Source: Nitrospirota bacterium (GTDB taxonomy: Bacteria; Nitrospirota; Nitrospiria; SBBL01; JAADHI01). Taken from it: a DNA stretch of 64,000 nt. Position 1 is the stretch's first letter. Every line of letters starts with the position of its first letter. Where the stretch lies: contig JAJDBW010000048.1 of the NCBI GenBank assembly GCA_029261155.1, forward strand, positions 1 through 64,000, given 5' to 3'. The notes under the pieces are model-generated. The model searched no databases. It was not told the DNA's origin and saw only the letters and a list, made by a program, of their open reading frames with translations. The translations under genes and the position numbers were made by a program. Positions 3,101 to 32,694 of the stretch are shown here, one piece after another.

Positions 3101-3390
3101 AAGGCCTCCGGGAGTTGCTCGAAGGCGGTGGCCGCCGCCTCATCGTCGAGGGGCGTGATGTGCGTGCCTGGATTTGGAGATTGGGGCTCGAGTCCGCGAT
3201 GGAGTAAAAAATGAAGGACCCGATTCCGGCCGGGGGGCGTGTCTTTGGGAAATCGGATTGTGTCCTCGACGGCGATCCGATGTGTTTTGGGATCGAGATC
3301 GACTTTGATCTCGTGGTGGATTTCTCCGGCGTGAAGGACTGCGGCTCCGAAAAACGATAAACAAATGGCGATGCACAAAAATTGTTTCAT
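127..3390 (-). CDS. M1-like and M28 double metallopeptidase with truncated PDZ
   Basis: This large exported peptidase has two catalytic modules. The signal peptide starts at MKQFLCIAIC. I chose this ATG because AGGTG lies 5 nt upstream; an in-frame ATG at 3414 is less likely. An aminopeptidase-N-like half follows, with the zinc motif HEILHNWWG near residue 310 and the downstream glutamate in NWSEGL. Residues about 750-1010 form an M28 aminopeptidase domain with metal-ligand blocks GAHYDHLG, GADDNASG, FSGEE, NMDTVG and GGHDDFH. The C-terminus begins a PDZ domain (SPAEKAGLRAGDIIL) but stops two or three residues later, so most of the PDZ fold is missing. It probably degrades peptides in the periplasm or at the outer membrane. 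The early stop next to a transposase start suggests an insertion cut the gene. Confidence 0.85.
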   Translation of the reverse strand: MKQFLCIAICLSFFGAAVLHAGEIHHEIKVDLDPKTHRIAVEDTIRFPKDTPPGRNRVLHFLLHRGLEPQSPNPGTHITPLDDEAAATAFEQLPEAFSPTPDTGLEAYRLSLPAGQDTAVLRYAGKIDHPLHQEGEDHARSFQQTPGTVSEEGIYLEGATYWLPWFDQGLLTFTLDVTLPAGWDAVSQGERTRHEKGAERTEVRWESPEPQDAVFLIGGQFTEYSRPAGKVLAQAFLRTPDPALAEKYLGVTGQYIEMYDRLLGPYPYGKFALVENFWDTGYGMPSFTLLGPQIIRFPFILHSSYPHEILHNWWGNGVFVDAASGNWSEGLTAYLADHLIQEQRGRGRNHRRAVLQKYADYVSAASDIPLTAFRERHNPVTEAVGYGKTLMFFHMLRYELSDELFVRSLQDVYRSHRFKRASFEDLESAFSKRAQRDLSQTFAQWVRRTGAPQLRVEAAQAVAIEGGYRLTATLKQIQSGPAYRLNVPIAVHLEGQAAAHQTALAMTEKELQVELMLPARPLRLDVDPEFDLFRRLDRNEIPPALSLAFGGKRPLMLLPAKEKDSATTGYRQLAESWRQSQNPEIEIAWDEAFETLPSDRTVWLLGWENQFLNKMSEGLRHYDTALGAGQVRIGQDILRREEQATVVVTRNGENPNFALAWLAGDNPAALPGLARKLPHYGRYSYLGFKGDEPENKLKGEWPIIQSPMSVRVAQTDGKRVKVVTGKLAARQALATLPSVFSEERMHADLRFLADEKMKGRGFGTPELDRAADYIAEQFRKAGLIPLGDAEGSYFQSFEARAGDPEKTAVLKNVVGLLPGNNADWAGQSVVVGAHYDHLGLGWPDAHRGDDGKIHPGADDNASGVAVLLELARSLAGQSPQRSVIFVAFSGEEVQALGSRHYVQNQKDYPAEKMMGMLNMDTVGRLGNKKLRVFGAETAKQWPHLFRGIGFVTGISIQTVENEFNPSDQLSFHAAGVPAVQVFSGGHDDFHRPSDTLDKIDTAGMAKVAKVMSEAIAYLAERPDPMTVTLSEKNRNPAQQSTTPRRVGLGTLPDFAYEGKGARIDGVSSDSPAEKAGLRAGDIILLAS

Positions 3391-3439
3391 CGGACACCTA
3401 CATCGAGTGAACAACGAAGCGGCCCAGCCGCGCGCGGGG

Positions 3440-4670: not shown

Positions 4671-5486
4671 TTAGGGGTTTTTGGCGCAGCGAAATCCCAG
4701 AAAGGGAAAGCGTTCTTCCGGAAAGACATTTTGTCGGAAGGTGAGGCGTGCGAAAATGGGAAGTGTATAGTGGCCCGAATCGCCATAGGCATCGCCTCGG
4801 GCCACCTTATACTGCTGGCCGAAATCGGGGCTTTCGTAGTCCGCGCCTGGATAAGCTTGATACCAATTGGCCGTCCATTCCATGACATTCCCATTCATGT
4901 CGAAGAGGCCGTACACGCTGCGGTCTTGGCTGAAGCGTCCGACCATCATCACGCTTCCGTGGGTGCCTGCGCTCACGTTGCCTTTGGTGGCATCAAATTC
5001 CTTGCCCCAAGTATAGAGATTGCCGTTCGGCCCACGCGCGGCTTTTTCCCATTCGGCCTCACTTGGGAGGCGTTTTCCGATAGAGTCACAATAGTCACGG
5101 GCTTCGTACCAATTCACTTCCACCACAGGAAGCAGCCCTTGGCCGTCGGGTGGGTCTATCCCTCCCCAATAGGGGGGTGGTTTTCGCTGTCGGGCCTTTA
5201 TGAATATTGCATAGTCTTTGTTGGTTACTTCGAAGCGGTCGATAAGGTAGTCCGAAAGGGAGAGGCTTCGCTCGGGGTGTTCGTCCAAGTAAAATGGTTT
5301 TTTATTTCCCAACTCGCCCTGGAGGCCTTCGTCATCGACCTTGTCGCTTCCCATAATAAACGGCCCTTCGGGGATGCGGATCATTTCGGGGGGGTGTTGT
5401 TCGGGTTTTAGAACGAGATAGGTCAGTAGACCGATGGTAACGATAATTGTGGAAAATAAAACGAATTTCTTTAGTGAAAACACCAC
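4671..5486 (-). CDS. Membrane-anchored formylglycine-generating-enzyme-like (SUMF1/PvdO) protein
   Basis: The 271-residue protein has an N-terminal membrane anchor (FVLFSTIIVTIGLLTYLVL) followed by one FGE-sulfatase domain. Family signatures include IPEGPFIMGSD near residue 40, RFEVTNKDYAIF, PVVEVNWYEARDYCDSIGKR, LPSEAEWEKAARG, MNGNVMEWTANWY and the closing LGFRCAK. Family members oxidise cysteine or sulfur substrates, or are structural relatives without activity. The active-site cysteine pair of true FGE is not evident, so the reaction is unknown. The start codon is GTG. The gene begins only 25 bp after the 12-heme cytochrome stop on the same strand, so it is probably co-transcribed with the electron-transfer genes and may act in the periplasm on one of their products. 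Confidence 0.85.
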   Translation of the reverse strand: MVFSLKKFVLFSTIIVTIGLLTYLVLKPEQHPPEMIRIPEGPFIMGSDKVDDEGLQGELGNKKPFYLDEHPERSLSLSDYLIDRFEVTNKDYAIFIKARQRKPPPYWGGIDPPDGQGLLPVVEVNWYEARDYCDSIGKRLPSEAEWEKAARGPNGNLYTWGKEFDATKGNVSAGTHGSVMMVGRFSQDRSVYGLFDMNGNVMEWTANWYQAYPGADYESPDFGQQYKVARGDAYGDSGHYTLPIFARLTFRQNVFPEERFPFLGFRCAKNP

Positions 5487-5511: not shown

Positions 5512-8500
5512 CTACTTCTGGCCGTCAAGGACCGAATGGGCATCCGTATTGTGGTTCATGTCCCTTCCGTGGCACCTGAGATTGCAGCCTGGACCTTTAT
5601 GAGCACCATAGTCATTGAGGTTTGCTCCTGGACCGAATGCAGTATCTGGTCCATTAACGAGATGTCCTGCGCCCCAAAGGGGCTGATCGGAAACACGATT
5701 ACCGGTGATATTGGGCTGAAAATTGATTAGGTGCGAACTCATGTTGTGTCCCGGGTTATCGGCCTGAAACTGCGGATCGTTCATTCCGACGAAGATGGTA
5801 TTGCCCGCTTCGACATTGCTGTGGACATTATTGTGGCATTCGTGGCAGCGGGCATTTGTCCGTCCGACCAGATGGAGAAGGTGTAAATTGCCTCCTGTTG
5901 TTCCTAAACCATTCACATTACTTGTCCCACCGCGGTAAAAGTTGGTCAAACGTGACTTTGGCGCGATGGCCCCTGGGCTTTCCCACCATGGCGTAAGAAA
6001 GGCCGATTCGTTATGGCAATTGAAACACAGGGCGAAATTCTGTGGGTTGTACTGACCTCTAACGGTTCCTGGAGGCGGGCTGTCCGCTGTTCCTATTGTT
6101 GTATCATAGTTTGCCCTCAAAATTCGCTTATAATTCGAACCATGCGGCCCTTGCGCCGTTTTTGGGTCGTTGAGCGAGGCGGTCCGGACACCGACCGGAT
6201 CTTCGGGAATGCTAGGCGAACGATCGGTCGGGCGGCGGTAGGCGGTGCCGCGCGTATCGTCAAAAGTGATGGGGCCGGGATAGTCGGGAAGGTTGATGCC
6301 GAGTGGGAAACCAGTGCCGTCGAAGCCCAGAAATTGCGGGATGTTACCCAAGTAAGTGCCGAAGAGATCGGTATTGTGGCAGTCGGTGCAATGGATGGTG
6401 GCCTCGCGGGAGAGTCCCCCGGAGCCGTCATGCCCGCTGACCCGTCCACTGGAATCGAAATTGGCTTGGTGTCCGAAGCCTCCCATGAATTGGCCTTGCT
6501 GAGAAGGGACATCAACATAAAGATTAAAATTATTGAGTACGCCCGATTGATTCCGGCCCGGCTGAAAAACGGGATGAAAGGAGGTGTTCATCATCGGTGG
6601 ATTTGGGTCGGGAATCAAAGGGCCATTTTTGTCGTTTGGATCCAAAATCCTAAAATTCTCTGGATAAAACGGAGTGGAGTTCGGATCGAATTCTTTCCGC
6701 TTATTGCTGCCGTGGGCATTTACGCCCTTGCCGGGATCGATGGGGCTGTTTCCCCGCGCCTGAACTAGCTTTCCCGTGCCGACTGCGTTGAAGAGGGCTT
6801 CTCGGACGTGGTTGTTAAAGGTGTTGCCGTGGCAACGCAGACAGACTTCATAAATATAGGGCTCGCGTTTTTCGTCGACGCCGAGAAGGGTTTTGGCGAC
6901 GATGCCGCTGCGAATGGTGATTCCGGGCATGCCTTGAAAACGGTTTCTCCGTGTAACCCTGTGCATGTTGTGGCAGTCGACGCATTCGATATGCGAGGTA
7001 TCCGGTGTTTGCGCGCCGGGGACCACGTTGCGATCCTTGTTATTCGCCGGTTCTTGAAAGGGGCCGCCAAAATAGGAAGGCACCCGGTTGTCGCTGCCCA
7101 ACTGTACGCCTTCTTTTGGGAGATCGACAAAGACCGGTTGATGGCCTAAGCCCAGGGTCAGGTCCATGGCGCTTCCGGTCGGGGAGGTGCCGTTGTTTCC
7201 ATTGCCTTCCCGGTCCTTAAAGAATTGCGTACGAATGTCGGGTGCGCGGGTCGGGGCCTGTAAAATAGAGGTTTCTTGCGGTTGGTGACATTGAAAACAA
7301 GTCTGCTCAATGGCGACATTGCCGATGGGATCGACGCCTTCCCGCAAAATACGGATGGCCCCTTGCCGCGTATGCGGGTCGTGGCAAATCAAGCAAGCCC
7401 GTTCGGCGACTACTGGGGATTCGTCGTCGTGGAGGTTGGTTGCGCCGGGTTTCAGCCGCGAATCGTCAAAGACCCCGGTTTGTCGATCGCCGAAGTGGGA
7501 ATTCAATTCGTCCGGGTTGTAAGGCCAGCCTGGCTTGTCGTGACAAAAAAGACAGAGTATGGCGCCTTCTTGTGCGGGCTGTCCGCCGCGGCTTGCCGCG
7601 CCTACGCGTTTTTCAGACTGTGTGGCGGCAAAAGTTCGGGATTGGAGGCGGTTGGCGCGCAGAAATTTTGGAAAATCGACCTGGTGCGGATTATGACACG
7701 ACGTACACTGTACGGAATCGTAGACGTTATTGTTGTCGCCCGAAGCCCTTCTTAATGGCGAAAGCGGGGTCGGTGTGCTTTGCGTAAAAGGCCGATGGAC
7801 GGGCGGCCCCGGATTCACGAATTCGGCGTCTTTAGAAAGCAATTGGGTGTCGAAGACCATCGAAATCGGATGATCGTTTCGGAGGTCTTGTCCGAGCGCA
7901 CGCGTGTTCTGTGAGGCTGCACCGTCTCCCACCGGGATCGATCCGAAAGGTCCGGCCGGGGCCTGGCCGGTGGGGTATTCCATTGTATATTCCCCATCGA
8001 GGCCGCCGCTTCCACCTTTGTTTAGCACGCTGCCGAGGGCGATCGTTCCGTCGTGGCAAGATAGGCAAAGCCGGGAGTATCCGGTTGGACGGCGTCCCCC
8101 TTGGGTATTTTGGTTTAAATTCGCTTCGAAGGACTTACTCCAGACCTGATCGTACATTTGATACTGGTCGGGAGAGAGTTTTCGGTTCCAAATTGGGGCG
8201 CGAATGGTGACGCCTTCTCTTGAAGCGCCGTGGGGTGTATGGCAGAAGACGCAGACCTCGGTGGTGCCGTTTGCACCCGAGGAAGACTTAATGTTTCTTT
8301 GATTGTCCGGACTAAAGAGCTGTTCGAAGATGACTTGTTGGTCGCCGGTTAAGGGGAGCGCGGAGAGGTTATGTTTGGTCGCGCTGACATCTTCCTCAAA
8401 GGGTTCGGAGGTGGGTTGAGCCCAAGAGCTTCGCTCGAAAAAATAGGCCGTGAGCCCAATGAGCGTGAGCGTGGAGACAATCAATACAAGCCGAAAAGGC

Positions 8501-8559
8501 GAAGGCGATTGACCCGATTTTAATCTCGGCAGAAAACGCAGCAAGAACTTACCTTTCAT
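5512..8559 (-). CDS. Dodecaheme cytochrome c, exported (1015 aa)
   Basis: This is a large multiheme cytochrome with a signal anchor (LVLIVSTLTLIGLTAYFF, residues about 25-42). I count eleven CxxCH sites: CVFCH, CLSCH, CTSCH, CLFCH, CLICH, CFQCH, CVDCH, CLRCH, CTDCH, CFNCH and CHECH. A twelfth site near the C-terminus is a non-standard CNLRCH (CxxxCH). The first two sites lie in a module, CHTPHG...APIWNR...CLSCHDG...LRNDHPISM, which recurs in the 4-heme and 5-heme cytochromes of the same locus. Long Pro/Asn/Gly-rich linkers separate heme groups, as in extracellular or outer-membrane cytochromes. It probably conducts electrons across or outside the outer membrane. An NHL lipoprotein gene precedes it by about 160 bp, and the FGE-like gene follows closely. 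Confidence 0.9.
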   Translation of the reverse strand: MKGKFLLRFLPRLKSGQSPSPFRLVLIVSTLTLIGLTAYFFERSSWAQPTSEPFEEDVSATKHNLSALPLTGDQQVIFEQLFSPDNQRNIKSSSGANGTTEVCVFCHTPHGASREGVTIRAPIWNRKLSPDQYQMYDQVWSKSFEANLNQNTQGGRRPTGYSRLCLSCHDGTIALGSVLNKGGSGGLDGEYTMEYPTGQAPAGPFGSIPVGDGAASQNTRALGQDLRNDHPISMVFDTQLLSKDAEFVNPGPPVHRPFTQSTPTPLSPLRRASGDNNNVYDSVQCTSCHNPHQVDFPKFLRANRLQSRTFAATQSEKRVGAASRGGQPAQEGAILCLFCHDKPGWPYNPDELNSHFGDRQTGVFDDSRLKPGATNLHDDESPVVAERACLICHDPHTRQGAIRILREGVDPIGNVAIEQTCFQCHQPQETSILQAPTRAPDIRTQFFKDREGNGNNGTSPTGSAMDLTLGLGHQPVFVDLPKEGVQLGSDNRVPSYFGGPFQEPANNKDRNVVPGAQTPDTSHIECVDCHNMHRVTRRNRFQGMPGITIRSGIVAKTLLGVDEKREPYIYEVCLRCHGNTFNNHVREALFNAVGTGKLVQARGNSPIDPGKGVNAHGSNKRKEFDPNSTPFYPENFRILDPNDKNGPLIPDPNPPMMNTSFHPVFQPGRNQSGVLNNFNLYVDVPSQQGQFMGGFGHQANFDSSGRVSGHDGSGGLSREATIHCTDCHNTDLFGTYLGNIPQFLGFDGTGFPLGINLPDYPGPITFDDTRGTAYRRPTDRSPSIPEDPVGVRTASLNDPKTAQGPHGSNYKRILRANYDTTIGTADSPPPGTVRGQYNPQNFALCFNCHNESAFLTPWWESPGAIAPKSRLTNFYRGGTSNVNGLGTTGGNLHLLHLVGRTNARCHECHNNVHSNVEAGNTIFVGMNDPQFQADNPGHNMSSHLINFQPNITGNRVSDQPLWGAGHLVNGPDTAFGPGANLNDYGAHKGPGCNLRCHGRDMNHNTDAHSVLDGQK

Positions 8560-8720
8560 AGACGATCCACTATAATAAGCAGCAGATTTTTTGTCAACTT
8601 TGCGGATATCGATTGCAGAAAAGCATCATCCACCCGCGATTCAAATCAAGGCTTAAGCCGACTTCCTTTCGATATTATTTAGATCAAGCCAAATCTGTTT
8701 TCTCTAGCATCCAGAGGGTT

Positions 8721-9824
8721 TTAACCCGCCGGATTTTCTTTGCCGATAAGTTGAAACACTTGTACCCGTTTATTGTAGGCATCTGCAACATAAATTCGAC
8801 CGTCTTGATTCACGGCGATCCCTGAAGGCAGCCAGAAAAAGCCGGGGTCAACACCTGAGGCCCCGAAGTTCAAGAGAAGCGCTCCGGATGGGTTGAACAC
8901 TTGGACGGTGTCGAACAAGGTGTCGACCACGTAGATATTGCCTTGCTGATCGACGGCTATCCCTTTTGGACGGGAGAATTCCCCCAGGTTGTAACCCAGA
9001 CTGCCCACCTGTGACAGTGGCTTTCCTTCGGGGTCGAAGACCTGTATTCGGAAGTTGAGCGAATCGGAAACGTACAAGTCCCCTTTTTGACTAACCGTCG
9101 CATAGGTTGGAAAATTGAAGGTGCCGGCTTCAACGCCGCGTTTACCAATGGTGCCGAGTTTTTCTCCGAGGAGGGAGTAGATCAAGACGTGGTGCGCCAT
9201 GGTGTCGACCACGTAAAGTCGTTCTCGCTCCCTGTCGATGGCGATGCCGGAGACCCGTTGAATTTCTTGGTCGTTGCCGATGACCCGAATGGACTTCCCC
9301 TCCCGATCGAAGACGAAGATTCGGTTTAAGTCGGCATCCGAAACGTAAAGTTGAAAAGCCTTGTCGACTGCGACCCCGATGGGGTTTTGAAGTCGGACGT
9401 CCGGGTTGACTTCGAAAAATTGTTTGTAGCGATGACCTTTTTCGTCAAAGTAATGCACGACCTGCAGGCCCGTGTCGGCGACGTAGACGCCCCCTTCGGC
9501 GTCGACGGTAATGCCCGAAGGGCGAATAATATAGGGCGTTTTTCCTTCTCCGAAAATAAATTGAACGATCTTTTTAAACCAAGAGGGTTCAATGCCGATA
9601 TCGGCGGGTTTGACCCAGGTTTGAACGAAGGAGATTCGCGGCGGATCGGGGGGCTTCGGCCAAAAGATGGCCGGACTTTCTTTTACCGGCGCTGTGGCGC
9701 AAGCCGAAAGCGCAAGCAGCACCACCAACATGCCGACTTTGTAGCGTGCCACCTTAAGAAGGGAAGCCAAGCGAGATGCCTTGTGCGGCCCTTTCCTTAT
9801 TTTTTTATCCTTGAATCGTTCCAA
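8721..9824 (-). CDS. NHL-repeat beta-propeller lipoprotein (copy 1)
   Basis: The 367-residue protein has a hydrophobic signal and lipobox (LLALSAC), so it is probably a lipoprotein. The rest forms about six NHL blades, visible as repeated segments such as GITVDAEGGVYVADTG, GVAVDKAFQLYVSDAD, GIAVDQQGNIYVVDT and GIAVNQDGRIYVADAYNKRV. The N-terminal region before the propeller (WPKPPDPPRISFVQ) matches WPPPPEAPRIQFLK in the second NHL gene at 13615-14739, so the two are paralogues. NHL propellers bind proteins or peptides. Here each copy neighbours a multiheme cytochrome, which suggests a role in docking, maturation or export of the cytochromes. The gene follows the beta-barrel gene by 35 bp. Confidence 0.88.
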   Translation of the reverse strand: MERFKDKKIRKGPHKASRLASLLKVARYKVGMLVVLLALSACATAPVKESPAIFWPKPPDPPRISFVQTWVKPADIGIEPSWFKKIVQFIFGEGKTPYIIRPSGITVDAEGGVYVADTGLQVVHYFDEKGHRYKQFFEVNPDVRLQNPIGVAVDKAFQLYVSDADLNRIFVFDREGKSIRVIGNDQEIQRVSGIAIDRERERLYVVDTMAHHVLIYSLLGEKLGTIGKRGVEAGTFNFPTYATVSQKGDLYVSDSLNFRIQVFDPEGKPLSQVGSLGYNLGEFSRPKGIAVDQQGNIYVVDTLFDTVQVFNPSGALLLNFGASGVDPGFFWLPSGIAVNQDGRIYVADAYNKRVQVFQLIGKENPAG

Positions 9825-9859
9825 GCGCTATGGGCCCTTTCGTGATTTTTCGGCCTTCA

Positions 9860-11830
9860 TTAAAACGATCGGCTCATGCGTCCGAAAATCGATTGGCTCT
9901 TGTATTCCACATTGTCGCCAAGGCTTTTGGAGGTGTCTTCGCTCCATCGCCCATCGAGACTTAAGACAAATTTCCCAATTCGATACACGATGGCGGAGGT
10001 GGTCTCGATAATGTCGCGATCAAAGGAGCTATCCCCTTGCGTGCGCTCTTGGTTGGCCCGTGCGCCGAAGTTGATTGTGGTGTTGCCGAGATAAAAAGTC
10101 CAGCGGATTTCTTCGTAGAAGATGTGGGAGTCCAGATAGAATCCGCCCGGATAGTCTTGGTAGGTCCAACCGCTGGAGAGCATGCCCCCGCGCAAAAAGT
10201 AATAAGTGCCCCGGGCGTCTGTGAGGAAGTTATCGCCGTCGGGGCCAAAGCCCTCAATTTTAGTCCAACTCGCAGTACTTTGTAGGATGAGACTGTCGTC
10301 TTCAAGTAGAAGTCCCCTGAAATAACTCGAATCGGCATTAAGTTGAACTCGGTGCGAGAGTTGATCCCCGATTTCCTGATTCGCCGGAACGGGTTGAAGC
10401 GAATTCGTAGCTTGCGGGACGTTGAGGTCACGGTCGATGTCGTTGAGGGTGTAGCTTAAGGCCAAATGAATGAGGCGAATGCGGGTGTTTTCTACGCGCA
10501 GGGTAATGGTGTTCATGAGGTCGGTTTCGTCACTCTTTGCCGTATTCCCAATGGCATCGCTTTGGTCGGTATCCGTCATACCATAGGCCAAGGCGTAACT
10601 GGCGGAATAGCGTAGAACTTCCAAGGCACGGGTGTAGTTTAGGTACCCGCGATAGCGTTGGTAGCTGGTGTCGATGTTGACTGCGCCGATCTGGCTGGCC
10701 TCGGTTTCCGTCCAGCCATAGGCGGCGCCCAGGCCGGAGGAGAGGCCGAAGAAAGGCCGATAGTTCAGGCTGTAATCGAAATAAGGCGAGGTGGTCTTCG
10801 AATCGCTGATATCGAAACTGGAATAACGCCCGCTCATGACCATGTCGAGTGTTTCCATCGGACGATAAGATCCGCTCAAGAAGGCGCTTTGCCGAACCAA
10901 ATCCACTTTTCTTCCAGGATTGTTGGGGTCTGCGACGCGGGTGCTGGGTGTTTCGGCGTAATCGATGCGCGCATGCGTGTCCCAGTGGACTGAGGGGGTA
11001 TAAAATAAAGAGGCGCCGATCCCCTGCTCTTGCGTGAAGGCCGAACCAGTTCCATTTCGTTCGGAGGAGCCGCCATCCGTGGTGAGCCTTGAGTAGGTGC
11101 TCAGCACCAAGGCGGGCGCGAGACGGCTCTCCGTCGTGAGATTGAAGGAGTTTCCTTTTATGGTATCGATGCTACCGGACTGTTGGCCGGGTAGGGCTGT
11201 CCGGGCGACATCGGTTTCGTTGAATTGATATCGACCGATCAGCGAGGTCTCTCCGACTCGGCCACTGGATTCCAAATTGACGAAACGATTCAAGGTGCTG
11301 GGCAGGCGGTTGGGGTCGTCAATGGATTTGGCCTCGCTTTGGTTATAAGAAAGCGAGATGCGCGGGAGAAAGGAGGCTGAAAGGGCCCAATTTCCGCCAA
11401 AGGTGGTTAGCAGGTCTTTGTCCTTCATGTCGAGTGGACTCTCAAAGCGGTTGGATCGGGTGACGCGCTGGTAATAAAGGCTGAGTGGCGAAAGGGTTGG
11501 GAAGAGGTTTAAGGCGATGGAGTAATCGGTAAACTCAAAATCCTGGTCTCCCTGGCCATCTGTTTTTGTGTCTTGTTCGAGATAGGTGGCACTCATGAGA
11601 ATGGTGCCGATGCGCGGGTCGAAAAGCTCGCCGAAATTACGGAGGTTGTAGCGTTGTTGAAAAAAAGTGGTTTCGTCGGTCTCGTTGTTTTGCTCCGTCT
11701 TAAAGCTGCCGTAATTCAGGTCGAGCGAGCCGCTTAAATTAATAAAACGGGCCTCGGCCCAAGACGGAGCAAGCAGGGACAAGAAGAGGATGATTATCCC
11801 AAAATAAGCGCGTTTTCCCAAATGGAGCAA
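9860..11830 (-). CDS. Predicted outer-membrane beta-barrel (porin-like) protein
   Basis: The 656-residue protein has a signal peptide (IIILFLSLLAPSWAEA). The mature part is rich in alternating hydrophobic and polar strands with aromatic girdles, for example LDLNYGSFKT, YNLRNFGELF, YSIALNLFPTLSPLSLYYQ, ATYLEQ and WTFYLGNTTINFGARA, and it ends in phenylalanine (IFGRMSRSF), as expected for BAM substrates. It lacks heme motifs. Lying among multiheme cytochrome genes, it could be the pore that houses a cytochrome (MtrB/PioB/OmbB-like role) or an export channel. No direct sequence motif proves the MtrB family. The gene lies 77 bp after the SurA-like chaperone gene, a sensible partner for barrel or cytochrome folding. 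Confidence 0.75.
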   Translation of the reverse strand: MLHLGKRAYFGIIILFLSLLAPSWAEARFINLSGSLDLNYGSFKTEQNNETDETTFFQQRYNLRNFGELFDPRIGTILMSATYLEQDTKTDGQGDQDFEFTDYSIALNLFPTLSPLSLYYQRVTRSNRFESPLDMKDKDLLTTFGGNWALSASFLPRISLSYNQSEAKSIDDPNRLPSTLNRFVNLESSGRVGETSLIGRYQFNETDVARTALPGQQSGSIDTIKGNSFNLTTESRLAPALVLSTYSRLTTDGGSSERNGTGSAFTQEQGIGASLFYTPSVHWDTHARIDYAETPSTRVADPNNPGRKVDLVRQSAFLSGSYRPMETLDMVMSGRYSSFDISDSKTTSPYFDYSLNYRPFFGLSSGLGAAYGWTETEASQIGAVNIDTSYQRYRGYLNYTRALEVLRYSASYALAYGMTDTDQSDAIGNTAKSDETDLMNTITLRVENTRIRLIHLALSYTLNDIDRDLNVPQATNSLQPVPANQEIGDQLSHRVQLNADSSYFRGLLLEDDSLILQSTASWTKIEGFGPDGDNFLTDARGTYYFLRGGMLSSGWTYQDYPGGFYLDSHIFYEEIRWTFYLGNTTINFGARANQERTQGDSSFDRDIIETTSAIVYRIGKFVLSLDGRWSEDTSKSLGDNVEYKSQSIFGRMSRSF

Positions 11831-11907
11831 TGCCTCTCCTCAGTGTAAAACTCGGTGTTCCGCGTATCGGGCAGGGAAGCCAAGGAGCGGATCCCTAAGG
11901 TGTATTG

Positions 11908-12477
11908 CTAATTGACGAAATCGTCTCCCGAATCCTGCGTTGAAATGACAATGGTCGCTCTTGTTGTCAATTTTTGAAGCGCTTGCCTGCGTTCGTTTTC
12001 AGGTGTGCTTACAAGCTTCTCCCAGGTTTTTTCGATTAGGAGAGAACGCTCGACGCCTTTTCGTATCGCCGCCGGGTCGAGTCGGGCCTTCGCTAAGGCC
12101 GCCTCAAAATCGGTGTCGGACGAAAAGCGGTCTCGGATTCGTGCCAGACCCACTTCGATGTCTTCCTCGCTGACCACCAAGCCCTGTCGGCGTCCTTCTT
12201 GATAAAGGAGTTCTTCCTCGATCAGTTTTTTGAGCATCTCTTTTTCGAGGGTCGCCATTCTGCTTTCTGAAAGTTTCGTGTGGCCGATCCGGCGAAGATA
12301 GGCACGAACATGCTCTCGCACGGCGGCCTCGCTAATTGGAACATCGTTGACGCTGGCCCACAATTGAGTGCGGGTCGTCTCTTCGGTGGCCGCCGCAAGC
12401 GATACGCTGACTAAAATTGTTGTGAAGCACGCTGCCCATTGTAAGGCCCTGCGTTTTTTTGTTTGGCTTTTTATCAT
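11908..12477 (-). CDS. SurA-like periplasmic chaperone lacking the parvulin domain
   Basis: The 189-residue exported protein has the signal FTTILVSVSLAAA. The body matches the N-terminal chaperone region of SurA/PpiD-type peptidyl-prolyl isomerases: WASVNDVPISEAAVREHVRA, then MLKKLIEEELLYQEGRRQGL, VSEEDIEVGLARIRDRF and a final helix. The catalytic parvulin domain that normally follows is absent, and only a short tail remains, so it probably acts as a holdase rather than an isomerase. Its ATG overlaps the TGA of the preceding 4-heme cytochrome gene (ATGA), indicating translational coupling. It is a good candidate for a dedicated chaperone of the cytochromes or the barrel protein. Confidence 0.8.
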   Translation of the reverse strand: MIKSQTKKRRALQWAACFTTILVSVSLAAATEETTRTQLWASVNDVPISEAAVREHVRAYLRRIGHTKLSESRMATLEKEMLKKLIEEELLYQEGRRQGLVVSEEDIEVGLARIRDRFSSDTDFEAALAKARLDPAAIRKGVERSLLIEKTWEKLVSTPENERRQALQKLTTRATIVISTQDSGDDFVN

Positions 12478-13574
12478 TTTTTATGACAACTCAAACAGAT
12501 AAGACTTCTTTCATTTCGATCTTGCGAATTGGCCCCGGGTCGGGATGCAAGTCTGAGAAAAAGCGAGTTGTTTATCGTAAAGGCATTAATGGGTTCTGAA
12601 AGCGCGGGTTGACCTCCAGGCCGACTGGCCTCGTGGGGATTGTGGCAGGAGGCGCATTCGATATAAGGGGCATCGGGCCGGCTCGGGTCTGAAGCATAGG
12701 CCCGAATGCGATCGCGTTTATCGATGGGCAAAAAGGCGCCGTTGGGATCGCGATCAATCCACATGACTTCGCCACTGCCCGGAATCCGTCCGCCCTTGGT
12801 CGTAATATTCGTCAAAATTTCTCTGAATTGCGGATCGGTACGCGGAATTTCCATGCTGATGGGATGGTCATCCCGTAGATCGAGTCCCAGGTTGGGAAAG
12901 GGTTCTGCGCCGAAGGAGGCATTGGGTCCGCCGCCGAACTGATCGAAATAGATAAAGCCACCCGCTTCGTTATTGCGTTGGCCTTCTCTAAAGCTGTTTG
13001 AGGCATCGACCGCCGGGCCGGAAAAACCCATACCGATACTGCCGCCCGGTCCGCTCATGATCTTATTGTCTTGAAAGAAGCCGCCCGAGCCCGAGCTGTT
13101 GATGAGGGCATCGAAGGCCACTGCGCCGTCATGACAGGATAAGCAAGCCAGCGAAACGCCCTTGGGCCGTCCTGGATTGCCTAAGAGGTCTTGCGCATCG
13201 AAATGTGGGCTGGAGTAAGGGGTGAAGCCCATGGGGTTGGACAGCCGTCTATTCCAGAGGGGGGCAATCCCTTCGACACCGCCCACGTTGCTGCGGCCGC
13301 CATGGGGCGTATGACAAAAAATACACACTTCTTCATTGAGTCGGACATCGCCCTCGGTGCCTCGCACGGCTGGATTGCGCGCGCCCCGGAGGGAGGTCAG
13401 GTCGCCGGGCTTGAAGTCCGTCCCTTCACCGGCCAGAATGTCAGGATTGACAGCCAGGTTGTGTTTGGTGTGTCGGATATCTTCAGAGGCTTGCGCTTGT
13501 CGTGCCGCAGGGAAAGGGATGGCGTAAGCGATCAGGAAGCAGAGTAGCAATATTCTGAATAAGCCCAGATTCAT
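12474..13574 (-). CDS. Tetraheme cytochrome c (366 aa)
   Basis: This exported cytochrome has four CxxCH sites: CIFCH, CLSCH, CASCH and, at the extreme C-terminus, CLSCHKK. It has a signal peptide at the start (LLLCFLIAYAIPFPAA). The region from DIRHTKHNLAVNPD through EVCIFCHTPHGG, IAPLWNRRL, LACLSCHDGAVAF and LRDDHPISME is the same module as in the 12-heme and 5-heme proteins. Between sites lie Gly/Asn-rich stretches such as GSGGFFQDN. It is likely periplasmic or extracellular and takes part in chain-like electron transfer. It is coupled by a 4-bp overlap to the chaperone gene downstream and lies 40 bp after the second NHL gene. Confidence 0.9.
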   Translation of the reverse strand: MNLGLFRILLLCFLIAYAIPFPAARQAQASEDIRHTKHNLAVNPDILAGEGTDFKPGDLTSLRGARNPAVRGTEGDVRLNEEVCIFCHTPHGGRSNVGGVEGIAPLWNRRLSNPMGFTPYSSPHFDAQDLLGNPGRPKGVSLACLSCHDGAVAFDALINSSGSGGFFQDNKIMSGPGGSIGMGFSGPAVDASNSFREGQRNNEAGGFIYFDQFGGGPNASFGAEPFPNLGLDLRDDHPISMEIPRTDPQFREILTNITTKGGRIPGSGEVMWIDRDPNGAFLPIDKRDRIRAYASDPSRPDAPYIECASCHNPHEASRPGGQPALSEPINAFTINNSLFLRLASRPGANSQDRNERSLICLSCHKK

Positions 13575-13614
13575 CGCGATGAAGCGGCTCCTTTTTCAAG
13601 CGTTTGAAATAGAC

Positions 13615-14739
13615 TCAATTTTTTTCCGACCTATCGGGCGCGACCCCCGAACCGGATGCAAGCGGTTCGGCTTTGACTGCTGAGGGGCGTTTTTCTTTTG
13701 GCGTGGAAAGCGAAGTTGCGGGTGATGGCCTATTCAAAAACTGAAAGACATTGACCCGATGATTGTATTGGTCGGCGACATAAATCCGGTCTTGGCTGTC
13801 GATGGTGAGGCCGGCCGGAAGCCAGAACTGGCCTTCCTGTCCGCCAAACTCACCGAAGAAGAGCAGCAGTTGGCCATTGGGGTCGAAGATTTGTACATTA
13901 TTAAATCGGGCATCCACGACATAGATGTGGCCTTGGGAATCGACACCAATGCCCTTCGGCAGCGAGAACTGTCCAAAGCCCGTGCCCACCGATCCGAACT
14001 TGCTTAAAAACTTTCCATCCGGGTCGAAGACCTGGACTCTGAAGTTCATGTCGGTAATATAGATCTTGCCCGTTTTGTCGACAAAAAGGTTGGAGGGGAA
14101 ATTGAATTCGCCGTCTCCGGTGCCCCGCTGGCCAAAATCAAAGAGCGGCTTTCCCTCGAAATCGAAAACGAAGGCTTTGTGTTTTCGGGTATCGACAATA
14201 TAGACTCGCTTGAGTTCATTGTTGACGCCGATGCCGACGGGCCGTTCCATTTGGTTGAGGTCCCCAATATTAAAAAGATGCTTTCCTTCCGCGTCGTAAA
14301 CCAGGCATTTTCGAAGCACCGTATCGGTGACATAGACCCGGCCTGCGCTATCGGCAGTGACGCCCAGCGGTCCGGCCAAGGCGCCGGGGCCATCGACGCC
14401 GAGCATGGAAAATTGGTTCTGTTGGGAATCGAAAACCAGGACTTTTCTCCACCCTGAATCCGCAACATAGAGGCGTCCATTTGGTGTAGCAAACACAGCG
14501 TAGGGCTTGACCAAGCGCGCTGTTTCGGATTTATCGAATAAAAACGCCTTAACGCGGTCCATCCAACTTTTTTTCTCGACATCTTCGGACGAAGAAATCG
14601 ATTTGAGGAACTGAATGCGAGGGGCTTCGGGCGGCGGCGGCCAAACGAGATCGGGATTGGAAAGCGGTTTTTTTCCGCCACAGCCGGTTAAGAGGCCAAT
14701 TACGAGGCTTAAGGTGACAAAGAGCAAGGGTTTTCTCAA
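13615..14739 (-). CDS. NHL-repeat beta-propeller lipoprotein (copy 2)
   Basis: The 374-residue lipoprotein (lipobox GLLTGC) has about six NHL blades, seen as FATPNGRLYVADSG, GVTADSAGRVYVTDT, GVNNELKRVYIVDT, FVDKTGKIYITDMNFRVQVF, GVDSQGHIYVVDARFNNV and TIDSQDRIYVADQYNHRV. It is a paralogue of the protein at 8721-9824: both have the proline-rich lead-in WPPPPEAPRI and the same blade register. The C-terminus has a Ser/Pro/Lys-rich tail. It lies 13 bp after the 5-heme cytochrome gene and 40 bp before the 4-heme gene, so it is co-transcribed with them. A propeller paired with each cytochrome set suggests a scaffold or assembly role. The exact function is not known. Confidence 0.88.
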   Translation of the reverse strand: MRKPLLFVTLSLVIGLLTGCGGKKPLSNPDLVWPPPPEAPRIQFLKSISSSEDVEKKSWMDRVKAFLFDKSETARLVKPYAVFATPNGRLYVADSGWRKVLVFDSQQNQFSMLGVDGPGALAGPLGVTADSAGRVYVTDTVLRKCLVYDAEGKHLFNIGDLNQMERPVGIGVNNELKRVYIVDTRKHKAFVFDFEGKPLFDFGQRGTGDGEFNFPSNLFVDKTGKIYITDMNFRVQVFDPDGKFLSKFGSVGTGFGQFSLPKGIGVDSQGHIYVVDARFNNVQIFDPNGQLLLFFGEFGGQEGQFWLPAGLTIDSQDRIYVADQYNHRVNVFQFLNRPSPATSLSTPKEKRPSAVKAEPLASGSGVAPDRSEKN

Positions 14740-14752
14740 AGGCGAGGTTCTC

Positions 14753-15583
14753 CTATTTTTGATGACAGGTCAGGCAAAGCGCGCTTCCTCGGTTTGAGGT
14801 TCTTAAAAAGGGATCTCGGCCTTCTAGGTTTTTTTCGTCCGGGCTGTGGATGTCGTGACAAGAGGCGCATTGCACCTTGTCTCCCTCAAAGGTTTGGATG
14901 CCGTTTGGAAACATTCTTCCCCCGTCCGTCTTAAGAATCATGGGTTGATTGAATTGAGGATCTTGGTCGAGGGTGGGAAAGGTCATCGAAAAGGCATGGT
15001 CGTCGCGCAGGTCTTTCGTGAAATATCGGATCGTGGCGTCGTGCGCGCCGGAAAGGCCGCCATAGGCCCCTTCATTTCGATTGTGGCATTTGGAGCAGGC
15101 GTCCGAACCGGGTTCGCCTTCCAGGGTCATCCGATGTTTTACTCCGGCTTCAGAAATGTCATGAAAACGCGGTGGTTTTAAAATGGAATCGACTGCGACC
15201 GATCCATCGTGACAAGAAAGGCAGGCGAGTGAAATGCCGTCGGGCGCTTTGGGTAAGACCGAGTCGAAGTTGGGACTTGAATACATCCGATATTCTCTTT
15301 CTTTCGGCAGTTCTCTATTCCACAATGGTGCGTAACTGCTGCTGTTATGGGGGGTATGGCAATAAACGCAGGTCTCGCGGTAATCGCTGAAGGTCCCACC
15401 TTGCATCGGTCCGGTTTCGGCTTGGTAGCCGCGCCAATTCAGGGCCGAAAGGTCGTGACGAGACCGCACAATCGACCCGCCATCGACCGAAGCGGAGATA
15501 AAAAGGAGGACGACCGTCGTGAGGCAAAGTCCGATCAGGCCGCTTTTTTTTTGGATCAATCTATGTGATTTAAATCCGATCAA
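14753..15583 (-). CDS. Pentaheme cytochrome c
   Basis: This exported cytochrome has five CxxCH sites: CVYCH, CLSCH, CSKCH, CASCH and CLTCHQK at the C-terminus. The N-terminal membrane segment is LIGLCLTTVVLLFISASV. The shared module is present as RHDLSALNWRG, CVYCHTPHNSSSYAPLWNREL, CLSCHDGSVAV and LRDDHAFSMTF. I chose the TTG at 15583 because AGGAG lies just upstream and a normal signal peptide follows; the frame extends to a TTG at 15628 without a better site. It appears to be the first gene of the minus-strand cytochrome operon, 80 bp downstream of a promoter-like sequence, and is followed 13 bp later by an NHL gene. Confidence 0.87.
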   Translation of the reverse strand: MIGFKSHRLIQKKSGLIGLCLTTVVLLFISASVDGGSIVRSRHDLSALNWRGYQAETGPMQGGTFSDYRETCVYCHTPHNSSSYAPLWNRELPKEREYRMYSSPNFDSVLPKAPDGISLACLSCHDGSVAVDSILKPPRFHDISEAGVKHRMTLEGEPGSDACSKCHNRNEGAYGGLSGAHDATIRYFTKDLRDDHAFSMTFPTLDQDPQFNQPMILKTDGGRMFPNGIQTFEGDKVQCASCHDIHSPDEKNLEGRDPFLRTSNRGSALCLTCHQK

Positions 15584-15661
15584 CGGCTCCTGTCGGCGAA
15601 TAAATAAACCGTAAAAAAGGCCTTGCAAAAGTAGACATAAAAGCCCGAAGATATCAGGCTA

Positions 15662-15690
15662 ACTATTAAATTTATTTTCATTTTTGTCAA
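15662..15690 (-). promoter_or_regulatory. Sigma-70-type promoter for the minus-strand cytochrome operon
   Basis: On the minus strand a perfect TTGACA (-35) is followed by a 17-bp spacer and AATAGT (-10, four of six consensus bases). It sits in an AT-rich region between the divergent cytochrome transcription units. A start about 7 bp downstream of the -10 box would give a short leader before the 5-heme gene. Confidence 0.5.
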
Positions 15691-15771
15691 GGAAAAAAGA
15701 GGACAACAAAATCTTGTTGATAAATTTTCACGTGTATGGGAAACTGAAACGAAGTTTCTTTAAAAAATGAA

Positions 15772-15798
15772 TTGACATTTTACAAATACTTGTGTTAT
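15772..15798 (+). promoter_or_regulatory. Possible promoter for the plus-strand triheme cytochrome genes
   Basis: A perfect TTGACA at 15772-15777 is followed by TGTTAT at 15793-15798, a four-of-six match to a -10 box but with a short 15-bp spacer. It lies about 37 bp before the first gene of the plus-strand block. The spacing makes it weak evidence. Confidence 0.3.
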
Positions 15799-15834
15799 CC
15801 ATCCCCTACTTTTTATATTTGCCAGGGAGGAATG

Positions 15835-16206
15835 ATGAAAAAAGTTCGGATTGGCATCTTGTTGGGTTTTGTACTGCTCTTACCGTCCTTGTTCGTGGGT
15901 GACAATGTGTCAGGATATTATGGCGATATGGTGCTAAACAGCAAGGCCGAAAAAAGAGGGATGCCACCCGTTGTCTTTCCCCACTGGTATCACCGGGCTG
16001 AGTTTAAGTGTAAAGTCTGCCATCCGGCCATTTTTGAAATGCGTTCGGGTGCGAACGATATCGATATGAAAAAAATTATCGTCGACGGGCAGTTCTGCGG
16101 AAAATGTCACAACGGGACAATCTCTTGGAAGCCCATCGATTGTGCTCGGTGCCATTCTGGGGTGCCCGGCATGAAGACAGGCGTATTGGAAGGGTTCCCA
16201 AACTAG
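15835..16206 (+). CDS. Triheme c7-type cytochrome c (paralogue A)
   Basis: This small exported triheme cytochrome has a signal peptide IGILLGFVLLLPSLFV. The heme sites are CKVCH, CGKCH and CARCH. The fold signature is FPHWYH (distal histidine helix), then CHPAIFEMRSG, IDMKKI and GQFCGKCHNG, which matches the cytochrome c7-like family. I chose the second of two adjacent ATGs (15832 and 15835), because it lies 4 nt after GGGAGG. It is very similar in layout to the next gene, indicating tandem duplication. It starts the plus-strand arm of the divergent cytochrome island and probably ferries electrons through the periplasm to the outer-membrane components. Confidence 0.85.
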   Translation: MKKVRIGILLGFVLLLPSLFVGDNVSGYYGDMVLNSKAEKRGMPPVVFPHWYHRAEFKCKVCHPAIFEMRSGANDIDMKKIIVDGQFCGKCHNGTISWKPIDCARCHSGVPGMKTGVLEGFPN

Positions 16207-16216
16207 GAGGGTTTTT

Positions 16217-16891
16217 ATGACCTGGGCAGCAAAAGGACGAAAGCGATCTCTTTATCTTATTGTTGGTTTTTTAGCCGTGTCCCTTTCATCGATTTATGCC
16301 TGTGCGCGTCAGGCCAAGAGCGAGCCGATGGCCGATGCCGCACCCACCGTCGTTGCCCAAGCCGAGGCGCCCGTTCAAGTTAAAGAAGAGGATTTAAAGG
16401 CCCCGAAGACTGGACCGAAAACACGGTCCTTGGTCGCGCCCCCACCCGTTGAAGGGCTTCGCAAGTTTGAAGATCCAACCGTCCTTCCCACACCGGGGCC
16501 GCCTTACAACGAGCACAATACCAACCCGGATGTCGTGATGGAAAGCATTCCCAAGGAAGCCACCGGCGTGGAAGACTGGGTTGCTGCTTTTAAAGAAAAC
16601 AAAATCAATCCGCACGAATCGCTCGATTTAAGTAAGCCGCATACACCGCCCTTTAATTTCGATGTCGAAATCCCTGCCGTGGGCTCCATGCCCAATGTGA
16701 TCTTTCCGCATTTCCAGCATACCTATTGGCTTGATTGCGGCAATTGTCATCCGGGGATTTTCCTCATGAAAAAGGGCGGAAATCCCATCTCGATGGTGAA
16801 GATTGTTAACGGTGAATTTTGCGGACGCTGTCATGGCCGTGTGGCCTTCCCGATCGCAAACTGTACCCGTTGTCATGTCAAACCCAAATAA
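16217..16891 (+). CDS. Triheme c7-type cytochrome c lipoprotein (paralogue B)
   Basis: The 224-residue protein starts with a signal and a lipobox-like IYAC. A Pro/Ala/Glu-rich linker of about 100 residues follows, then a C-terminal triheme domain with CGNCH, CGRCH and CTRCH. The domain has FPHFQH, CHPGIFLMKKG, ISMVKIVNGEFCGRCHG, closely paralleling the previous gene. The long linker could let the heme domain reach across the periplasm from a membrane anchor. A strong AGGAGGG site precedes the ATG, 10 bp after the previous stop, so the two genes form an operon. A role as periplasmic electron carrier or tethered shuttle is inferred. Confidence 0.85.
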   Translation: MTWAAKGRKRSLYLIVGFLAVSLSSIYACARQAKSEPMADAAPTVVAQAEAPVQVKEEDLKAPKTGPKTRSLVAPPPVEGLRKFEDPTVLPTPGPPYNEHNTNPDVVMESIPKEATGVEDWVAAFKENKINPHESLDLSKPHTPPFNFDVEIPAVGSMPNVIFPHFQHTYWLDCGNCHPGIFLMKKGGNPISMVKIVNGEFCGRCHGRVAFPIANCTRCHVKPK

Positions 16892-16935
16892 GCCGGAACC
16901 CCTGCTTCATTCTTCACGGTCTTAAAGATCTTGTC

Positions 16936-17826
16936 GTGAGGATTTCATCTGCCATAGGGTCGGGAAATCGTCCTGCCTTGTTTGATCTAGGTTCCCTAGT
17001 CAGAAACCGGGTCCTCGCTCTTCTCCTATTCGCCCTACTCCTTGTTCCGGTCGATTCTCTAGAAGCCGGTATGGCAAAGCCGGATCGAAACCAGGAGCAA
17101 CTGATCGGGCCGGTAAAGACCTTGTTGATTGAATTTGCGAAACTCAATAATGTCGATGGGGAATGGGTACCCGAATCGCCTCGGACGCCTTGGCTTTCGA
17201 CCCTTTACGATTCATCAGGTTTTCAAATTGAGGAAGAGCAGTTCTACACTGAGAAGAGTCTTGATTTTAAATCCGTCTTTCAGTACGATGCTGCCGGGAA
17301 TTTGTCCGAGGGGGTCGAGTACGATTATCAGGGAACGGTTGCTTTTAAGTGGTCCTATGCCTACGATTTGGTCAAGAAAACCATCGAGAAAAAGCAGTTT
17401 TTCCCCGATGGCGTGCTCTTTTCGGTTACAACGCGTTTCTATGACGCGAACGGAAACCTGGTCGAGGAAAAACGGTTTCTTGCGCAAACTCAAAACCGGT
17501 TCAAATGGACCTATGCTTACGACAATGCGGGAAAGAAGATTGAGGAAGCCTATTTTCTTGAACGCCGGGGTGAACGCCCTGGTAGCACAAAATCGCTGTT
17601 GAACTTTAAAGCCATATTTCGCTATGATAAAGAAGGAAATATGATCGAAGAAACAAAGTACGATGCCTCGGGCCGGATCAGCGGCGTCAGGCGTTTTAAA
17701 TACGCGTTCGATCAAGTCGGAAATTGGATTACGCAGACCGCTTTTGAATCGCTAGGAGACAATGAAACATCAGCGCTTGTGCCCACCGAGATTACCTACC
17801 GTACCTTTTCTTATTATCCGCAATGA
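16936..17826 (+). CDS. RHS/YD-repeat-like exported protein
   Basis: The protein has a signal segment LALLLFALLLVPVDSL and then short repeated units of the YD/RHS type: VFQYDAAGNLSEGVEYD, YAYDLVKKTIEKKQF, RFYDANGNLVEEKRF, YAYDNAGKKIEEAYF, IFRYDKEGNMIEETKYD and FAFDQ-like closings. Such repeats form beta-rich shells or strips, and no toxin domain is attached here. The start is uncertain: the reading frame opens upstream inside the cytochrome gene (ATG at 16819), but a GTG at 16936 avoids that overlap and gives a normal signal peptide. Its stop overlaps the start of the next gene (ATGA). The function is unknown. Its placement suggests a surface or periplasmic partner of the cytochromes. Confidence 0.7.
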   Translation: MRISSAIGSGNRPALFDLGSLVRNRVLALLLFALLLVPVDSLEAGMAKPDRNQEQLIGPVKTLLIEFAKLNNVDGEWVPESPRTPWLSTLYDSSGFQIEEEQFYTEKSLDFKSVFQYDAAGNLSEGVEYDYQGTVAFKWSYAYDLVKKTIEKKQFFPDGVLFSVTTRFYDANGNLVEEKRFLAQTQNRFKWTYAYDNAGKKIEEAYFLERRGERPGSTKSLLNFKAIFRYDKEGNMIEETKYDASGRISGVRRFKYAFDQVGNWITQTAFESLGDNETSALVPTEITYRTFSYYPQ

Positions 17827-18947
17827 CCTTCCTAAGGCGACGATCTAGATTCAGGCTGTTTTTATTCATCGCGCTTTTATTCTGCCTTCATTTCCCCCTC
17901 CCATCCTCCTTTGCGCAGGCCCCTATGCCGCAAAGGAACCCGGAGCTCTGGAATCACTTTTCCCTCTTTTCGATTGTGCGGGCCTTGGCCATTGACGGCG
18001 ATACCGTGTGGATCGGTACCTCAAATGGCATTCTAAGATACAATCTTTCCACCGAAGACCAACAGGTGTATACGACGAAGGACGGCCTGCTTTCGAACAT
18101 GATCCATTCCATTACCGTTGGCCCTGATGGGGTGATTTGGGTGGGAACCTATGGGGGCGGCTTAAGCCGCTTCGATGGAAAAACGTGGACAGCCTACACC
18201 CCCTACGGCTTGGGCTCGACCCTGACTTATGCGGCCAATTGGACGCCCTTTAAAAAGGGGCAAGGCTTAGGCGATCTTTGGGTGTATGGTATTCATTTCG
18301 ATCCGAAGGGCGTGATGTGGGTGGCCACATGGAAGGGCGTCAGCCGTTTCGATGGGAAGGCATTTAAAACCTATACCACTGACGATGGTCTTATCGACAA
18401 ATGGGTTTACACCTTGAGCCAAGACCGCGATGGCGTCTTTTGGTTTGGCACGGAAGGCGGCGTGACGCGCTACGATGGAAAGACTTGGCGGAGTTATACG
18501 AATAAAGACGGCGTCGGGACGGATGTCGGAACAACAACGCCGCCCGAAGTCCAATCCCTTCCCTTCACGCCCCGGCACCACGCAGAAGGCGGCGGAAAGC
18601 CGCTTCGCTACAATCCAAATTATATTGTCTCCTCCGTGGTCGATGCGAAAAATCATCTATGGGTCGGGACCTTGGGCGGCGGGCTTGCACGTTTCGACGG
18701 TAAAAGCTGGAAAAGTTATTCCACAAAAGACGGCTTGGCGGGCAATATGGTCCACGCCATTAAAATTGACCGTAACGGCCTTCTCTGGATCGGCACAGAC
18801 GGAGGCGTCAGCCGTTTCGACGGTAAAACCTTTTCGAACCTAAGCAAAAAAGATGGTGTTAGCACTGTCTTTTCCATTGCTTTCGACAAAGAGGGAAACA
18901 AGTGGTTTGGAACCTTCGGCGGCGTCAGTCAATACCGGGGAGATTGA
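17823..18947 (+). CDS. Two-component-regulator-type beta-propeller protein, exported
   Basis: The 374-residue exported protein (signal LFLFIALLFCLHFPLPSSFA) is built from propeller repeats of the kind found in the sensor domains of hybrid histidine kinases. Units include VWIGTSNGILRYN, VIWVGTYGGGLSRFDGKTW, VMWVATWKGVSRFDGKAF, VFWFGTEGGVTRYDGKTW, LWVGTLGGGLARFDGKSW and LLWIGTDGGVSRFDGKTF. No kinase or membrane domain follows, so it is a stand-alone propeller. The start overlaps the preceding stop (ATGA), so the two are translationally coupled and probably interact. With the two NHL proteins this is the third propeller in the island. A scaffold function is an inference. Confidence 0.85.
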   Translation: MTFLRRRSRFRLFLFIALLFCLHFPLPSSFAQAPMPQRNPELWNHFSLFSIVRALAIDGDTVWIGTSNGILRYNLSTEDQQVYTTKDGLLSNMIHSITVGPDGVIWVGTYGGGLSRFDGKTWTAYTPYGLGSTLTYAANWTPFKKGQGLGDLWVYGIHFDPKGVMWVATWKGVSRFDGKAFKTYTTDDGLIDKWVYTLSQDRDGVFWFGTEGGVTRYDGKTWRSYTNKDGVGTDVGTTTPPEVQSLPFTPRHHAEGGGKPLRYNPNYIVSSVVDAKNHLWVGTLGGGLARFDGKSWKSYSTKDGLAGNMVHAIKIDRNGLLWIGTDGGVSRFDGKTFSNLSKKDGVSTVFSIAFDKEGNKWFGTFGGVSQYRGD

Positions 18948-28300: not shown

Positions 28301-28395
28301 TTATTCTCCGTTGTCGTCAAAATGGGTAATTGTTTTTTAGGATACGGGTTCAGGGTCTTTTGTTCAAGGCGTGAACTTCCCAAAACCTTATTAAT

Positions 28396-30171: not shown

Positions 30172-30298
30172 TGTTTCGATGGTCTATTGTCTCGCGTCTA
30201 TTTGAAACAAGGGCCTTGATGGTCTCGCAGGCATGGATCGTCTTTCATCTTTTGGTTGGGCCATGATATGACCCGACCAAAATGGCACGATTATAGCG

Positions 30299-31501: not shown

Positions 31502-31548
31502 TGATCACTCCTTTTGGATATGCACAATCCGCTTTAGCTGATTCGCGT

Positions 31549-32682: not shown

Positions 32683-32694
32683 CGCTCTATTCTC

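Follow-up and report, generated by a model that had tools for sequence, protein, structure and literature searches.

A conserved Nitrospirota locus with OmcE-type cytochromes that may build and anchor a nanowire at the outer membrane

What is assembled by a group of genes in which multiheme cytochromes alternate with two propeller lipoproteins, a shortened folding chaperone and a predicted outer-membrane barrel? The question is raised by a locus in a 64,000-nucleotide stretch of DNA, here called the window, from a Nitrospirota bacterium (class Nitrospiria, order SBBL01; assembly GCA_029261155.1, contig JAJDBW010000048.1, positions 1 to 64,000). The bacterium is related to Candidatus Manganitrophus, which oxidises manganese. 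Our favoured reading, with a probability of roughly 60%, is that these genes make a cytochrome nanowire of the OmcE type and fix it to the outer membrane. This reading is supported by the family membership of the cytochromes, their set of axial histidines, the export signals, the prediction of the barrel and the conserved synteny. Open reading frame (ORF) calling and translation give the order C5-NHL1-C4-SurA-N-BARREL-NHL2-C12-FGE on the minus strand, from 15628 down to 4671, and a run diverging from C5 on the plus strand with the order C3a-C3b-RHS-propeller:

C5, 14753..15628, minus strand: pentaheme cytochrome assigned to the OmcE family, with one additional heme; 5 CXXCH
NHL1, 13615..14739, minus strand: beta-propeller lipoprotein; PF01436, E 7e-27; lipobox LTGC
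C4, 12474..13574, minus strand: tetraheme cytochrome assigned to the OmcE family; 366 aa
SurA-N chaperone, 11908..12477, minus strand: PF13624, E 9e-14; no peptidyl-prolyl isomerase (PPIase) domain
BARREL, 9860..11830, minus strand: predicted outer-membrane beta-barrel with 30 predicted strands, outside PF11854 (MtrB_PioB)
NHL2, 8721..9824, minus strand: beta-propeller lipoprotein; PF01436, E 5e-36; lipobox LSAC
C12, 5512..8559, minus strand: exported dodecaheme cytochrome, 11 CXXCH and 1 CX3CH; 1015 aa
FGE, 4671..5486, minus strand: membrane-anchored periplasmic protein of the FGE-sulfatase fold; PF03781, E 2e-49
C3a, 15772..16206, plus strand: c7-type triheme periplasmic cytochrome; PF14522, E 3e-13; TIGR04257, E 7e-17
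C3b, 16217..16891, plus strand: probable lipoprotein with a C-terminal c7-type triheme domain; PF14522, E 6e-11; TIGR04257, E 1e-16
RHS-like repeat protein, 16819..17826, plus strand: exported; PF05593, E 3e-8
Reg_prop-type beta-propeller, 17823..18947, plus strand: exported; PF07494, E 2e-29

The intergenic gaps within the minus-strand run measure between -4 and 161 nt (the SurA-N start and the C4 stop share 4 nt), and the run thus fits an operon. In C3b, a linker of about 120 residues precedes the triheme domain, and the real start of the RHS-like protein probably lies downstream of its overlap with C3b. A first-pass annotation, made from the letters alone, had reported most of this inventory. 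ORF calling and motif counts confirmed its cytochromes with 5, 4 and 12 hemes on the minus strand in both number and position, and its two paralogous NHL lipoproteins, two divergent triheme cytochromes and two exported repeat proteins (with RHS-like and Reg_prop repeats) were likewise recovered. Its FGE-like membrane protein is present too, but at 4671-5486 it falls just outside the interval that the annotation had drawn around the island. The annotation described the large cytochromes as modular multihemes; the heme counts hold, but the homology of C4, C5 and the C12 N-terminus to OmcE had been overlooked.

PDB entry 7TFS, the OmcE nanowire of Geobacter sulfurreducens (PMC12954529), is the top match among solved structures for both C5 (E 1e-23, or 5e-27 with the C5 profile) and C4 (E 3e-10). 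A C4 profile built from 35 homologues matches 7TFS with E 1.4e-45 in two blocks that span the protein, while OmcS matches the same profile with E 5e-4 only, over a short stretch. C12 matches 7TFS at positions 95-306 (E 2e-10), one of just two solved-structure matches; the remaining match, shared by C4, C5 and C12, is the 16-chain entry 9yuq, a cytochrome of 218 aa. The architecture of C12 is an N-terminal OmcE-like tetraheme module of about 350 aa followed by 8 more hemes, and its last 362 aa have no relative among solved structures. The histidine of the CX3CH site near the C-terminus is retained in 95% of homologues, and we therefore count 12 hemes in this protein.

The 35 homologues of C4 have exactly 8 invariant histidines in common, of which 4 belong to CXXCH motifs and 4 are distal, as many as four bis-histidine hemes require. 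The N-terminal H38, in a KHNL motif, is invariant and aligns with the KHDL of OmcE (KHDLS). According to reviews, the distal histidine of one heme in the OmcE filament is supplied by the adjacent subunit (PMC12307469, PMC12954529), and we infer that the N-terminal histidine is this inter-subunit donor. In other classes of the phylum, the C4 protein of the locus is about as long as OmcE, at 229-237 aa, and matches it with E 4e-33 to 2e-38. In a tree, C4, C5 and the C12 module fall mostly in separate old clades, with weakly supported deep branches and a few distant sequences lying outside the expected clade. The sequences of C4, C5 and the C12 N-terminal module show homology to the OmcE nanowire subunit, and C4 is most likely the filament subunit. 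A further OmcE-like tetraheme cytochrome is encoded in the window genome at a distance from the locus (contig C76:20335-20991), and a PF09699 match of similar ORF size was present in each of the 6 order members searched.

The 656-residue protein that the annotation had predicted to be a beta-barrel was modelled with AlphaFold2 from 20 homologues (mean pLDDT 82.8, pTM 0.61). The model predicts an outer-membrane barrel of 30 strands, each of 10-19 residues, and its best fold match in the PDB is MtrB of the Mtr complex (6r2q_B, E 2e-10), with a low TM-score (0.34). The sequence has no match in Pfam or NCBIfam and no credible match among solved structures (best E 0.15). Membership of the MtrB/PioB family was rejected, as BARREL has no PF11854 match and the window genome has such matches on contig C69 only. 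There, a separate MtoAB/PioAB-like set at C69:4179-7904, apart from the locus, comprises a ten-heme cytochrome of 334 aa, a PF11854 barrel (E 2e-136) and a tetraheme protein of 213 aa. We regard BARREL as a predicted outer-membrane barrel encoded beside multiheme cytochromes, an arrangement that would make the combination a putative porin-cytochrome conduit in the wide sense (Ext, Omb, PCC).

The locus is widely conserved. A search with the barrel sequence found BARREL in 26 of 58 relatives, in the order of the window and several other families of the class, and found none in the well-sampled family f6 of the class, which we take to be Nitrospiraceae. Named matches include Candidatus Manganitrophus sp. 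GAC4, a metagenome-assembled genome (MAG) of Candidatus Manganitrophaceae, and OFTM MAGs, presumably the Oslofjord tunnel MAGs (order SBBL01) of PMC11442690. The gene order was identical in 20 of the 20 barrel-bearing neighbourhoods read, disregarding contig ends and local losses or duplications, and the flanking genes differed, which argues that the order is not due to chance. Among 396 Nitrospirota genomes the BARREL profile matched 71 and the C5 profile 117; a C5-type cytochrome was present in 68 of the 71 barrel-positive genomes (p = 2e-40 by Fisher's exact test, uncorrected for shared ancestry). The conservation of the gene set across genomes, on which the first-pass interpretation depended, is thus seen both in the 20 relatives and phylum-wide. 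Neighbourhoods outside the class retain C5, NHL1, C4, SurA, barrel, NHL2 and C12 in a rearranged yet recognisable order. C5 is the most conserved protein of the locus, with 64-86% identity across the class. FGE adjoins C12 in the order and in most of the class, the RHS-like protein beside C3b is conserved in the order, and the Reg_prop propeller in both order and class. In one family of the class (L034, L036, L037, L038) C4 occurs in two or three tandem copies, and FGE likewise in up to three.

The companions of the cytochromes offer some indications of their own. The SurA-N protein of the window, described in the first-pass annotation as lacking the isomerase domain, matches SurA N-terminal models only, with no rotamase match in Pfam. 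In all 12 order relatives read, the protein has 149-207 aa and no rotamase signature by length and motif (three proteins of the order, including that of the window, were scanned with Pfam), whereas complete homologues outside the order have 324-403 aa, with a rotamase domain in both of the two scanned. This contrast suggests that the isomerase domain was probably lost within the order. NHL1 and NHL2 are lipoprotein-like propellers, 40% identical to each other. Both begin with WPxPPxxPRIxF after the lipobox, and this motif, found in 38 of 70 homologues, is a possible docking signature. FGE proteins carry a catalytic cysteine pair in the C-terminal region; the corresponding region of the FGE encoded here has no cysteines, and the protein is therefore probably non-catalytic. 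Outside the class, one locus (L126:4512-6362) contains a protein of the Wzy_C/O-antigen-ligase type with tetratricopeptide repeats between C4 and SurA. Proteins of similar size are found in L123, L124, L133, L134, L136 and L141, with the domain assignment coming from L126 alone. As OmcE is extensively glycosylated (PMC9473688), the Wzy_C-type protein may be a candidate O-glycosyltransferase of the filament.

These results lead us to propose the following scenario. C4, and perhaps also C5, would be exported with the SurA-N chaperone as an escort and handed to or through the wide outer-membrane barrel, with the two propeller lipoproteins helping in delivery and docking; the barrel would serve as both exit and holder for the filament. 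Outside the cell the subunits would polymerise head to tail, with the histidine of the N-terminal arm ligating a heme of the neighbour as in OmcE. C12 is proposed as the base unit joining the filament to the barrel, because an OmcE module at its start is followed by eight further hemes. C3a and C3b, the latter tethered by its long linker, would be the electron carriers that connect this base to the inner membrane. The direction would be uptake rather than discharge, through the oxidation of Mn(II) or Fe(II), as suggested by the lithotrophic lifestyle of cultivated relatives. The complete picture, in which a manganese-oxidising Nitrospirota lineage takes up electrons via an OmcE-type nanowire whose C12 base is seated in a barrel that has 30 strands, is unusually wide and represents a new family, is tentative, and we regard it as possible rather than probable.

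Several points weigh against a nanowire. C4, with 366 aa, contains insertions relative to the OmcE precursor of 232 aa, and polymerisation could be altered. The AlphaFold2 model of C4 (35 homologues) has a pLDDT of 44.5, too poor to read the fold, and a subunit-crossing role for a particular histidine of C4 or C5 is suggested by alignment. The likeness of the barrel, chaperone and propellers to OscG, OscH and OscD, or to OetI, is drawn from descriptions of those proteins. The export of OmcS and OmcZ has been linked instead to a PilA-N pseudopilus (PMC12307469), and the literature consulted reports no filament from the order of the window.

The alternative that survives best is a plain porin-cytochrome conduit, in which the barrel and C12 cross the outer membrane, C4 and C5 act as monomeric relays at the surface or in the periplasm, and SurA and the NHL proteins do no more than aid the folding of the barrel. 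MtrB is the best fold match of the barrel, C12 and the barrel stay together in nearly all loci, and a barrel with a dodecaheme cytochrome fits the published description of PCC_1 (PMC9040806). PCC_1 is one of three porin-dodecaheme complexes proposed in Candidatus Manganitrophus and the only one in strains SA1 and SB1; it also occurs in further members of that family, both freshwater and marine, and was reported to be restricted to it (PMC9040806). One member of the order (G014) has two complete extra PF11854 barrels. Two others (G011 and G013) have no PF11854 barrel, yet keep the cytochrome locus, which is the sole large multiheme cytochrome cluster with a barrel found in them. PCC_1 is thus probably BARREL plus C12, by elimination and not by sequence identity with the published genes. 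A plain conduit would, however, leave unexplained the OmcE signature and N-terminal histidine in C4, C5 and the N-terminus of C12; a compact rod cytochrome like MtrA is missing from the locus, C12 has about 85 residues per heme, and the barrel stands outside PF11854. We consider the plain conduit unlikely, though a serious competitor to the nanowire.

Considerably less probable is a pure secretion and assembly machine, in which the barrel exports folded C4 and C5 while Cyc2 or the separate MtoAB-like system carries out the transmembrane electron transfer. A precedent exists in the osc operon of OmcS, for which roles of OscH in folding, of OscEFG in secretion and of OscD in morphology have been proposed (Shen et al. 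2025 as cited in PMC13194489); the predicted width of the 30-strand barrel and the separate decaheme and PF11854 barrel set of the window genome would also agree with such a division of labour. The conserved divergent C3a and C3b, together with C12, point instead to electron flow through the locus, and G011 and G013 carry the locus without a PF11854 system. A merely coincidental neighbourhood with no shared function can be dismissed: NHL, Reg_prop and FGE are indeed common exported protein families, but the constancy of the gene order in all 20 relatives read, despite differing flanks, the phylum-wide linkage and the co-occurrence p of 2e-40 speak against it.

Other parts of the window contain genes of separate interest. 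At 26885-45500, about 8 kb from the cytochrome locus, visual inspection of the translations suggests a type IV pilus cluster, with PilRS-, PilC-, PilT-, PilB-, prepilin peptidase- and pilin-like ORFs. At 127-3414 an unusual exported fusion of 1095 aa combines peptidase M1-like and peptidase M28 parts with a C-terminal PDZ domain. The ORF at 19285-20769 encodes an SBP_bac_3 solute-binding domain that is extended at its C-terminus by some 200 aa, beta-rich in appearance, and was not seen adjoining the cytochrome locus in relatives.

To our knowledge, no nanowire has yet been shown to feed chemolithoautotrophic growth with electrons from a mineral or metal; if the uptake reading is true, this one would be the first, and the genes for its assembly factors would lie next to it. 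PCC_1 is the leading candidate for drawing electrons from Mn(II) in Candidatus Manganitrophus and its relatives; if it belongs to a nanowire locus, the question of the Mn(II) electrons becomes directly testable by cryo-electron microscopy of filaments from enrichment cultures that already exist. The locus points to a specific path, open to experimental test, by which cells could exchange electrons with minerals, and the model of C12 as a base unit suggests how the wire joins the cell electrically. The genes of the locus further make up a compact set, found across the phylum, of candidates for the assembly of OmcE-type wires, a process described as poorly understood (PMC12307469).

The first-pass annotation had proposed a previously undescribed conduit or assembly locus. 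There is good support for a locus of electron transfer at the outer membrane with assembly factors of its own, the emphasis moving from the conduit to the nanowire, but the claim of novelty was too strong: barrel and dodecaheme cytochrome are probably PCC_1 (PMC9040806), and companions of the osc and oet kind are known (PMC13194489, PMC10553843, PMC12246660). The locus resembles PCC_1 in that all barrel-bearing members of the order have a porin with a dodecaheme cytochrome; it differs from PCC_1 as reported in occurring outside the Candidatus Manganitrophus family and, if BARREL and C12 are PCC_1, the restriction to that family is not upheld. With MtrAB, PioAB and MtoAB (PF11854) it shares an outer-membrane barrel beside multiheme cytochromes, MtrB being the best fold match, but it has no PF11854 match, 30 predicted strands versus 26, and, unlike MtrAB and PioAB, no compact decaheme cytochrome of about 330 aa beside the barrel, where C12 has 1015 aa and C5 and C4 have 5 and 4 hemes. 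Membership of C12 in MtrC/MtrF was rejected, the Pfam match being weak. The 12- and 5-heme counts agree with those of ExtA and ExtC or ExtG and ExtF (PMC6148476); membership in ExtABCD/ExtEFG was set aside because homology to OmcE accounts better for C4 and C5.

With OmcE itself the cytochromes of the locus share the tetraheme layout, all 8 axial histidines, Sec export, the N-terminal [KR]H[DN]L arm and the signature CxFCHTPH/CLSCHDG/DHP/CxSCHxxH/C-terminal CxxCHxK. Unlike OmcE, the locus has three OmcE-like paralogues, of which C5 carries a fifth heme and C12 continues into 8 further hemes, and the companion genes are a barrel, SurA-N, NHL and FGE. The oet cluster combines a barrel and a large cytochrome with OmcS/OmcX-like putative filament proteins (PMC10553843), and in an operon of SEEP-SRB bacteria large cytochromes are accompanied by a PPIase and a propeller (PMC12246660). 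The OetABI/OmcX/OmcS-like cluster of the bacterial partners of anaerobic methanotrophic archaea is similar in that it brings together a barrel, a large cytochrome, putative filament cytochromes, a PPIase and a propeller, and differs in filament type and in the number of hemes; nothing in the locus studied here was recognised as a compact periplasmic cytochrome like OetA. The osc operon likewise groups nanowire cytochromes with a chaperone for folding, channel-like components and a protein resembling a propeller. The present locus departs from it in having OmcE-type rather than OmcS-type subunits, two propellers and, in the order of the window, a chaperone that unlike OscH has no PPIase domain, although the rotamase is present in the relatives scanned from the class and phylum. 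By analogy, we read the locus as the same kind of arrangement as osc and oet, built around OmcE-type subunits.

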